Positions 952 through 3,452 of a stretch of 64,000 bases of DNA are shown here, piece by piece (position 1 is the first letter of the stretch; the number at the start of each line of letters is the position of its first letter). Under the pieces are notes generated by a model that was not told the origin of the DNA, did no database searches, and saw only the letters and a list, made by a program, of their open reading frames with translations. The DNA comes from Ancylothrix sp. D3o (GTDB taxonomy: Bacteria; Cyanobacteriota; Cyanobacteriia; Cyanobacteriales; Oscillatoriaceae): positions 201,441 through 265,440 of the forward strand of contig NZ_JAMXEX010000004.1 in assembly GCF_025370775.1 (NCBI RefSeq), given 5' to 3'. Both the position numbers and the translations under genes were made by a program.

Positions 952-1287
952 CGCGGGATAGAGCAGCCTGGTAGCTCGTCGGGCTCAACGACAAAGTTAA
1001 CTTTAAAGTTAACGTTGCAATGGGCTGTACACAAGGAAACTCGTGTATGACAACCTTTCAAATTCGGGGAAGCCTGTAAAATGGTAATCCCGAGCCAAGC
1101 CCCAGAAACGGGGAAGGTGTAGAGGCTCGATGGAAGGCATCCTAACAGTTAGGCTGAGGATGAAGGGAGAGTCCAGACCCCAAACTGGGATAACAGGCAA
1201 GATGCCTGTGCTACAAATTCCAGGCAGCGAAAGCTGTAGTAGGTAAGCATAACCCGAAGGTCAGTGGTTCAAATCCACTTCCCGCTA
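952..1287 (+). tRNA. Initiator tRNA-fMet (CAT), split by a group I intron
   Basis: Exon 1 (952-985) and exon 2 (1248-1287) join into a 74-nt cloverleaf without encoded CCA. Position 1 (C) and 72 (T) do not pair, and the anticodon stem has the three G:C pairs (GGG 981-983 with CCC 1253-1255); both are initiator hallmarks. The D stem is GAGC/GCTC, the T stem AGTGG/CCACT, the anticodon loop CTCATAA after splicing. The gene is interrupted just after the T at position 33, directly before the CAT anticodon, so no working initiator tRNA can form unless the intron is removed. A terminator hairpin follows at 1303. Confidence 0.93.
986..1247 (+). other. Group I intron, 262 nt, without an ORF, in tRNA-fMet
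   Basis: The boundaries follow group I rules: the upstream exon ends in T (985) and the intron ends in G (1247). Core elements are visible: P-like AATTCGGGGAAG (1061-1072), Q-like AATCCCGAGCCAAGC (1086-1100), R strand GGCTC (1124-1128) pairing as P7 with S strand GAGTC (1169-1173), and a P8 hairpin between them (about 1137-1162). An 18-bp palindrome at 996-1013 fits a P2 stem. Related introns interrupt tRNA-fMet in Synechocystis, where the intron also encodes the endonuclease I-Ssp6803I; here there is no room for an ORF. The 3' peripheral part (about 1194-1216) resembles a dispersed repeat seen elsewhere in the window. Confidence 0.9.
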
Positions 1288-1302
1288 TTAAAGACAAATA
1301 CC

Positions 1303-1342
1303 AAAAAAACCCTGTAATCTTTAAGGTTGCGGGGTTTTTTTG
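1303..1342 (+). terminator. Intrinsic terminator after tRNA-fMet
   Basis: AAAAACCCTG and the complementary CGGGGTTTTTT flank a roughly 15-nt loop, followed by a T tract. It lies directly behind the tRNA and before the endonuclease gene, so the two are probably separate transcription units. Confidence 0.7.
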
Positions 1343-1375
1343 TAGAGTAAAAAGCCGCAGTAGCTAAAAAAGCCG

Positions 1376-1873
1376 GTGGATACAAAGCTAAAAGGTGATA
1401 TTGCAGAGCAAGCCGCCGTATTGCAGGCGCTTAAGCGTGGCTGGGGAGTGTTAAAGCCGGTGGGAGACAGGCTGGCTTACGATTTAGTTTTTGATGTAGA
1501 AGGAATTTTAGTTAAAATTCAAGTCAAATATGCCTGGCTGGATGCCCCATCTGGTAACTATGTTACAGACAACCGGCGAACGAAAACAAATCGCCGCGTC
1601 ATGCTTCGAGAAGCTTACAAGCAAACAGACTTTGATTTTGCCTTAGTTTATATCGAAAACCTCGACTTATTTTATGTGTTTCCGGTAGAGATATTCACCG
1701 GCTATAAAAGCGAGATACACCTTGTAGAAGCTGAGAAACGCCAGAGAAAACCTCGCTCCGCCGAATATCGGGACGCTTGGCTGCTAATCTTAGAATGGGT
1801 TGAAGAGCGAAGTACACACCTAAAAATTAGTGAAATCTTACCATCGCTTGCAAGCCACGACACCACCGGCTAA
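1376..1873 (+). CDS. Free-standing PD-(D/E)XK homing endonuclease, I-Ssp6803I type
   Basis: The 165-residue product belongs to the group I intron-associated PD-(D/E)XK family (PDDEXK_5), whose characterised member I-Ssp6803I cuts intronless tRNA-fMet genes. Visible catalytic positions are Glu11 (GDIAEQAA), Asp36 (AYDLVF) and Gln49-x-Lys51 (KIQVK), the E..D..QxK pattern of that enzyme. The region around residues 60-75 is Lys/Arg-rich (NRRTKTNRR) and may contact DNA. The start is GTG at 1376; no ATG fits. In Synechocystis this ORF sits inside the intron, whereas here it lies 88 bp downstream of the split tRNA, past a terminator. The reading frame is intact, so the enzyme may be active; cleavage of an intronless initiator tRNA gene is inferred from the family. 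Confidence 0.88.
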   Translation: MDTKLKGDIAEQAAVLQALKRGWGVLKPVGDRLAYDLVFDVEGILVKIQVKYAWLDAPSGNYVTDNRRTKTNRRVMLREAYKQTDFDFALVYIENLDLFYVFPVEIFTGYKSEIHLVEAEKRQRKPRSAEYRDAWLLILEWVEERSTHLKISEILPSLASHDTTG

Positions 1874-1984: not shown

Positions 1985-3421
1985 ATGGCAATGAAACAAC
2001 CGATTTTAGTAGGTGGTTTAGGTTTAACTGCTGCTTTGGGGATATTTCAAACCGTCCATCACTCTCTGGTAAATATGGGAGACTGGACAATGTTAGGGGT
2101 ATTAGCTGCCGGCGGTATTGCTTGGTGGTTGCAAGGAATTACCCAACCATTCCTCCCCAGCATGACTTCTCCCCTTACCAGAGAAGCGTTAGAAAAAGCC
2201 ATTGCAACGGCTGAAGCTTCTATTACGGCGTTGAAATCGGAAACCGAATCTCTCGACTCTAACGCAAAATCAGCAATTAATGTAATTTGTGAAAATTTAC
2301 AAGAACAAATCTCGAAGTTAACCGCCGAACTCGACCGGCCCGAAGTTCGCATTGCTGTTGTCGGGGGGAAAAATTGCGGTAAGAGCACTTTAATACAACT
2401 GTTGCAAGCAAACTGGCAAGAGCAACCACAAAAGGTTATTTTTACAGAAATTTCCTCGTTATTTTCTGATCCAAATTGGCAGATTAAAGCTGATTTGGTG
2501 CTGTTTGTAACGACTGGGGATATTACTGATCCTGAGTTTCAAGTTATCCAGCAATTAAAAAATAGCGGTTTGCGGACTTTGTTGCTGTGGAATAAACAAG
2601 ATTTATGCTTGCCGGAAGAACGCGCCTCGGTTTTGCAACAACAGCAAATTAGACTGCAAGAAACGCTTAATTTGGGGGATGTAATGGCGATTTCGGCTTC
2701 TCCGGCGCCGGTGAAAGTCCGCCGTCATTTAGAAGATGGTTCTTGGCAAGAATGGCTGGAAGAACAAACTCCAGAAATTGCAGCTTTAACCGGCAGACTA
2801 AATGAAATTTTGGAAAACGAAGCGCAGCAATTAATTTATAGCGGCAGCTTGCATTCTGTGAATACTATCAAATCTGAAGCGAAAATGCTGTTAAATAAGG
2901 TGCGGAAAGAACGCGCTTTGCCGATTATAGAACAATCACAATGGATTGCGGCGGCGGCTGCTTTTGCGAATCCGGTGCCGGCTTTGGATTTGTTGGCAAC
3001 GGGGGCAATTACGGCGCAGTTGGTGGTAGATTTGGGGGGGATTTATAAGCAACAGTTTTCGTTTGAGCAAGCTAAAACTGTCGCGGGTACAATGGCTGAG
3101 TTTATGTTTAAGTTGGGGTTAGTTGAACTGTCTACGCAGACGGTGACGCATATCCTTAAAAGTAATGCCATTACCTTTGTTGCCGGTGGTGCTGTGCAGG
3201 GTGTGAGTGCGGCATATTTGACACGAATTGCCGGGTTAAGTTTGATTGAGTATTTCCAAGAGCAAGAAATTAGTGCGGCGGAGAATCGCGGTTTGAATTT
3301 TGAGCAATTAAAGAATACTTTGCAAAGTGTTTTTCAGCAGAATCAACGTAAGGAGTTTTTGCAATCTTTTGTGAGGCAAGGGATTGGGCGGTTGATGCCG
3401 GATGCGAAGGTGCCGGTGTAG
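1985..3421 (+). CDS. DUF697-type membrane-associated GTPase with degenerate switch region
   Basis: This 478-residue protein has two N-terminal hydrophobic segments (about 7-24 and 34-50), a helical linker, a P-loop GGKNCGKST (127-135), an NKQD motif (203-206) and a C-terminal half with hydrophobic stretches like the DUF697 domain. The normal DxxG switch II motif is absent and only about 68 residues separate P-loop from NKQD, so the switch regions look shortened. The next gene encodes a paralogue with all motifs. Both are probably membrane-bound regulators of unknown role. The start ATG at 1985 has a second in-frame ATG two codons later. A terminator follows immediately. Confidence 0.7.
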   Translation: MAMKQPILVGGLGLTAALGIFQTVHHSLVNMGDWTMLGVLAAGGIAWWLQGITQPFLPSMTSPLTREALEKAIATAEASITALKSETESLDSNAKSAINVICENLQEQISKLTAELDRPEVRIAVVGGKNCGKSTLIQLLQANWQEQPQKVIFTEISSLFSDPNWQIKADLVLFVTTGDITDPEFQVIQQLKNSGLRTLLLWNKQDLCLPEERASVLQQQQIRLQETLNLGDVMAISASPAPVKVRRHLEDGSWQEWLEEQTPEIAALTGRLNEILENEAQQLIYSGSLHSVNTIKSEAKMLLNKVRKERALPIIEQSQWIAAAAAFANPVPALDLLATGAITAQLVVDLGGIYKQQFSFEQAKTVAGTMAEFMFKLGLVELSTQTVTHILKSNAITFVAGGAVQGVSAAYLTRIAGLSLIEYFQEQEISAAENRGLNFEQLKNTLQSVFQQNQRKEFLQSFVRQGIGRLMPDAKVPV

Positions 3422-3428
3422 AAATTAG

Positions 3429-3452
3429 GGTGGGCAAAGCCCACCTTTTTTG
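3429..3452 (+). terminator. Intrinsic terminator
   Basis: GTGGGC-AAA-GCCCAC followed by a run of six T residues, about 10 nt after the first GTPase stop codon. Confidence 0.8.

Follow-up and report, generated by a model that had tools for sequence, protein, structure and literature searches.

A free-standing I-Ssp6803I-type endonuclease gene beside an ORF-less group I intron in the initiator tRNA gene of Ancylothrix sp. D3o, a probable split mobile intron

The window analysed here is a 64,000-nucleotide stretch of the Ancylothrix sp. D3o genome. It contains an initiator tRNA gene interrupted by a group I intron and followed on the same strand by a homing endonuclease gene and a GTPase gene:

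952–985, + strand: 5' exon of tRNA-fMet(CAU), ending at U33 (ARAGORN with introns)
986–1247, + strand: group I intron, ORF-less, 262 nt (RF00028 at 993–1191, 70.3 bits)
1190–1218, + strand: peripheral insert on the P9 side, a dispersed genomic repeat (repeat matches; alignment gap elsewhere)
1248–1287, + strand: 3' exon of tRNA-fMet, its first bases being the anticodon CAU (ARAGORN)
1302–1342, + strand: intrinsic terminator, a hairpin and T run in the interval between tRNA and endonuclease gene (fold −25.6 kcal/mol, z −3.65)
1376–1873, + strand: free-standing I-Ssp6803I-type PD-(D/E)XK homing endonuclease gene, 165 aa, GTG start (PF11645, 2OST)
1985–3421, + strand: slr1306-family/DUF697 GTPase, the next gene and the syntenic marker of the insertion place (NF049994, E 5e-189)

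With introns allowed, ARAGORN identified a tRNA-Met(cat) at 952–1287 whose spliced exons adopt a canonical 74-nt tRNA fold. The intron is inserted after U33 and before the anticodon and ends in G; its splice junctions read ...GGGCT/CAACG...GGTAAG/CATAAC, with a U preceding the 5' splice site. The RF00028 match covers the whole model (1–253) and exceeds the gathering threshold of 50 bits (E 8e-16). Homologous introns of 240–340 nt and of ~655 nt occupy the same site in fMet genes elsewhere. The window intron is longer than the usual 244 nt because of the insert at 1190–1218, which is a gap in all other aligned introns. This segment (intron nt 205–233) is a dispersed repeat with the core GGCAAGATGCCTGT and >20 other matches in the window genome. 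A 63-aa antisense ORF also lies inside the intron (1009–1200), and nothing points to its being a gene. The interrupted tRNA is the sole fMet sequence detected in the genome (as two halves; assembly 95.7% complete). The intron must therefore splice for viability, unless the assembly lacks a further copy, and on this indirect basis it is predicted to be self-splicing.

The 88-bp gap between tRNA and endonuclease gene contains the strong T-tailed hairpin, and a hairpin with T run recurs at the equivalent place in other loci of this layout and in empty sites. The hairpin at 1302–1342 was absent from the list of the consensus scan. Beyond it, wholly outside the intron, ORF 1376–1873 is a full-length reading frame with no internal stop. 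It matches PF11645 (PDDEXK_5) over residues 1–137 (E 9e-54, 181.7 bits against a curated cut-off of 26.1), and is the one PF11645 gene in the genome. The I-Ssp6803I structure 2OST was its only solved-structure relative at E<1 (E 6e-64), and NCBIfam held no model for the protein. Residues D36, Q49 and K51 are invariant across 15 homologues, with E11 retained in the full-length rows; from their alignment positions we take D36, Q49 and K51 to be the PD-(D/E)XK active-site residues. These searches, with the hairpin fold, bear out the initial annotation, which had placed an ORF-less group I intron at 986–1247 of an initiator tRNA gene and an intact I-Ssp6803I-family gene 88 bp past the tRNA, outside the intron and behind a terminator.

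The tRNA-fMet intron of Synechocystis sp. PCC 6803 is 655 nt long and contains a 150-aa ORF (PMC1995217, table). The two systems share the tRNA, the insertion site, and a homologous intron core and endonuclease. They differ in layout: the Synechocystis ORF (I-Ssp6803I) is intronic, whereas the 262-nt window intron is ORF-less and its ORF lies past the tRNA, behind the terminator. By analogy with I-Ssp6803I, whose intron occupies the same site, the window enzyme is expected to target the uninterrupted tRNA-fMet, the presumed substrate being the intronless sequence GTAGCTCGTCGGGCTCATAACCCGAAGG.

A scan of a genome collection yielded 80 loci with relatives of the ORF. The free-standing layout, an ORF-less intron with the ORF outside and downstream, was found at 39 of these (34 cyanobacterial and 5 Bacteroidota), with introns of 240–340 nt (median 244). 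The ORF starts 93–178 nt past the 3' exon start, just behind the terminator, in 34 of the 39 free-standing loci, and the 5' exon flank GCTCGTCGGGCT is identical in 34/39. The Synechocystis layout, with the ORF inside a 602–713-nt intron, occurred at 36 loci from many phyla; L081, L104 and L113 were assigned to the intronic class by reading, beyond these 36. An ORF beside an intronless fMet was seen at none of the 80 scanned loci. The free-standing layout is widespread in cyanobacteria and is not a one-off. Broken ORFs were found at L054, L137, L142, L013 and L143. A vector search for a plasmid carrier of the element gave no match, and a phage carrier was represented by only distant matches among annotated phages.

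Two loci depart from the usual order. Only at L105 (766–1400) does the ORF directly precede the tRNA-fMet gene with its intron. At L106 (4000–4562) all that remains ahead of the ORF is the terminator and the final ~18 nt of the tRNA, which gives the impression that a further element broke the locus at the 3' end of the tRNA.

To gauge the association of intron and ORF, 391 genomes were drawn evenly from the order. An fMet-type ORF, in some cases broken, was present in 22, and an uninterrupted fMet in none of these 22, against 306 of all 391 (ORF vs intact fMet: Fisher 2e-16, uncorrected for shared descent). Among the other 63 genomes without an intact fMet match, at least 34 have an intron but no full ORF, so the intron is able to persist alone; the rest include some in which no fMet was found, partly incomplete assemblies. 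Within the window's own family, G393, G421, G432, G443 and G455 have neither intron nor ORF, and G407 has the intron only.

The empty sites define the insertion place. In L116, L124 and L126–L128 the cassette is cleanly absent and the junction is intact in the T run past the terminator; the GTPase homologue follows directly. Where Nostocaceae lack the intron, the tRNA terminator is followed directly by the leader of the GTPase gene that in the window comes after the ORF. In occupied relatives the cassette, a short leader plus the ORF, sits within the T run that follows the terminator. The ORF stop codon TGA can derive from the host sequence TTTTGATC. A GTPase homologue lies ≤1 kb past the ORF in 28 other free-standing loci. 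ORF relics beside an intronless fMet were clear in 5 of 20 Nostocaceae, with one further weak case. On the simplest reading, these relics reflect precise loss of the intron followed by decay of the enzyme gene, an order of events that only the free-standing layout can record.

Distances between introns and between ORFs correlate at 0.49 across 27 loci, and no covariation is left beyond that of the neighbouring GTPase (partial Mantel 0.01, p 0.46, 27 loci). Descent within this set therefore looks largely vertical, unless conversion tracts extend over the neighbour. Were descent indeed vertical, the pair could be post-mobile: inherited with no current homing, its endonuclease kept since loss of the intron with an active enzyme would be lethal, an addiction-like state. 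The shared syntenic place in the window and in Nostocales, the several broken ORFs and the many introns without an ORF are also consistent with this. Against it, free-standing ORFs are under purifying selection (median dN/dS 0.09 over 276 pairs, many of them distant), and presence is very patchy: a single family and genus can hold intact, relic and empty sites, and the window's family has members that lack both parts or keep only the intron. The GTPase used as host marker may itself fall within conversion tracts. Overall, we judge a post-mobile pair to be rather unlikely.

The direction of change can be read from the ORF 3' ends. Intronic ORFs occupy the P1 loop and continue through the 3' strand of P1 and through P2, in many cases also into P3/P4 (SPVKFGEA). 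Remnants of this P1–P4 sequence can still be recognised at the 3' ends of most Nostocales free-standing ORFs. With introns masked, the best matches of an ORF-less-intron profile were ORF 3' ends (E 4.8e-7). Reciprocally, a profile of free-standing ORFs matched the 5' 100 nt of ORF-less introns from other genomes (L149, E 1.4e-8). A profile of intronic tails scored on 17 of 36 free-standing tails, all cyanobacterial; 16 of these scored above all 100 shuffles and the remaining one was beaten once. The window ORF's own tail carries no intron-derived mark at the DNA or protein level. The window ORF groups with the Nostocales free-standing ORFs (support 94/81; wider group 87/63). In the protein tree, rooted on phage homologues, the free-standing ORFs of Bacteroidota are the first to diverge, and the clade of the window falls among the intronic ORFs. 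AU tests on 140 columns reject neither a single intronic clade nor a single free-standing clade. Judged from these tails and the tree, an intronic ORF that moved out is the most likely ancestor of the clade containing the window. This conclusion reaches the window because of its clade placement (94/81), and a relocation in the history of the window gene itself is inferred from that clade.

Two further candidates were rejected. Several independent origins of the free-standing layout were suggested by parsimony (4–8 changes), but the AU test allows a single origin (p 0.42–0.45). A remnant of the ORF N-terminus in the P1 loop of free-standing-type introns (ACTAAACGCTTA; L032, ATGAGTACAGAGCTCAAAAAAGACA) seemed plausible on visual inspection but scored no better than shuffled introns. 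At L032 (~1240–1300) the P1 loop of the ORF-less intron holds ATGAGTACAGAGCTCAAAAAAGACA where intronic ORFs begin; this stretch resembles an ORF remnant but is not above shuffles.

The tree also bears on an early stage, in which a free-standing endonuclease already cutting the insertion site lies beside an ORF-less intron that it has yet to invade. Such a stage would agree with the phage homologues L186–L189, free-standing beside an intronless tRNA-Met, and with the first-branching Bacteroidota ORFs, free-standing and without intron-derived tails. For the window it is very unlikely, given the nesting of its clade among intronic ORFs, the support for which is modest (94/81; wider 87/63), and the intron-derived 3' ends that other members of that clade often bear. 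The unmarked Bacteroidota copies and the phage-borne outgroup leave room for an ancestral free-standing state. Very unlikely, too, is the possibility that the ORF was never intronic and acquired its 3' end by local recombination with the intron 0.5 kb away, as their close same-strand position and the restriction of the mark to the ORF 3' end might suggest, since the mark lies in the register and frame of the intronic P1–P4 reading (SPVKFGEA), at the same codon position.

We regard the locus as a probable split mobile group I intron served by a trans-acting downstream endonuclease, the endonuclease of the window's clade having once been intronic and since relocated. The ribozyme interrupts the anticodon loop of the sole initiator tRNA gene detected, and the separate I-Ssp6803I-type enzyme encoded just downstream would cut the uninterrupted anticodon region (GTCGGGCT/CATAACCCGAAG) in trans. 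Repair templated by a pair-bearing copy would then bring in the intron, together with the endonuclease gene where the conversion tract spans at least ~0.6 kb. Once in place, the intron would shield the tRNA gene from the endonuclease, and this shielding would account for the lack of intact endonuclease genes beside intronless tRNA. The ancestral ORF would have lain in the P1 loop, read into the intron core, and been relocated behind the tRNA terminator. Collaborative homing fits the constraint (dN/dS ~0.09) and the co-occurrence, and by analogy with phage systems and I-Ssp6803I we infer it to be the best mechanism, with cleavage, co-conversion and shielding as its presumed steps.

The initial annotation had offered three origins for the arrangement, which together are partly supported. 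Departure of the enzyme from the intron at a late stage is supported for the window's clade by the Nostocales P1–P4 tails and the 94/81 placement, with the window's own tail unmarked. A collaborative pair is favoured by the distribution (22 of 22 ORF genomes without an intact fMet, empty sites lacking both parts) and by purifying selection; covariation beyond the neighbouring gene was nil. An early stage before invasion is disfavoured for the window and possible for the Bacteroidota copies, which are unmarked and branch next to the phage homologues. It had also proposed comparing related genomes with and without the intron; uncorrelated presence of the ORF in intronless relatives was not seen.

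Collaborative homing pairs of phages include the psbA intron with F-CphI in cyanophages and T3 gene 5.3 with PhiI I-TslI. The concept has been set out previously (PMC3984707, PMC10448857), with the ICP1 terminase as an example (PMC10448857). The window resembles these pairs: a free-standing endonuclease neighbours a gene that has an ORF-less intron or an intron site, and the insertion site is the expected target. Unlike them, it lies on a bacterial chromosome, in an essential tRNA gene, and involves a PD-(D/E)XK enzyme, and the free-standing gene of its clade shows evidence of intronic origin. Judged from layout and association, the arrangement would work like a collaborative homing pair, with cleavage and co-conversion predicted. 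The seg genes of T4 are free-standing homing endonucleases that act in intronless homing. Like them, the window has an endonuclease gene that lies next to its presumed target and would act in trans, but here an intron would protect that target; the phage homologues L186–L189 resemble the intronless type.

L186–L189, from IMG/VR viral contigs, carry a free-standing ORF (51–57% identical) at ~3001–3430 (L188: 2284–2718). The 3' end of this ORF either adjoins or overlaps an intronless tRNA-Met(CAU) at its 5' end. Compared with the bacterial site, L186, L187 and L189 have a different anticodon stem, and L188 retains the core. In several Nostocaceae (L016, L017, L027, L028, L144, L145 and L146, around 1345–1510; possibly L018), a divergent PF11645 subfamily was also observed, ~70 nt past a tRNA-Arg(UCU) gene that has no intron. 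The anticodon stems of these tRNA-Arg(UCU) genes differ strongly between loci, and the subfamily may be a free-standing endonuclease directed at tRNA-Arg, with changes in the target conferring immunity.

As a tentative wider reading, which we hold to be possible at best, the endonuclease family may have cycled. It would have passed from a free-standing phage gene by an intronless tRNA-Met to a partner of an ORF-less intron (Bacteroidota), then into the intron (many phyla), and out again in cyanobacteria, the exit fusing intron sequence to the gene. The window would be a product of this exit.

The origin of collaborative homing arrangements has been stated not to be clear (PMC10448857), and the direction usually proposed is from a free-standing enzyme into an intron (PMC3984707). 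The component parts described here are members of known families. Neither the systematic distribution nor the intron derivation of the ORF 3' ends was found described in the open-access literature searched; priority for the bare free-standing layout is uncertain, the search having covered open papers. At a single essential site, the system supplies dozens of naturally occurring cases, many of them from cyanobacteria that can be cultured, and these span both layouts as well as empty sites, relics and enzyme-less introns. In one clade a sequence mark gives the direction of change, and the order of events and the cost and benefit of each layout become directly testable.
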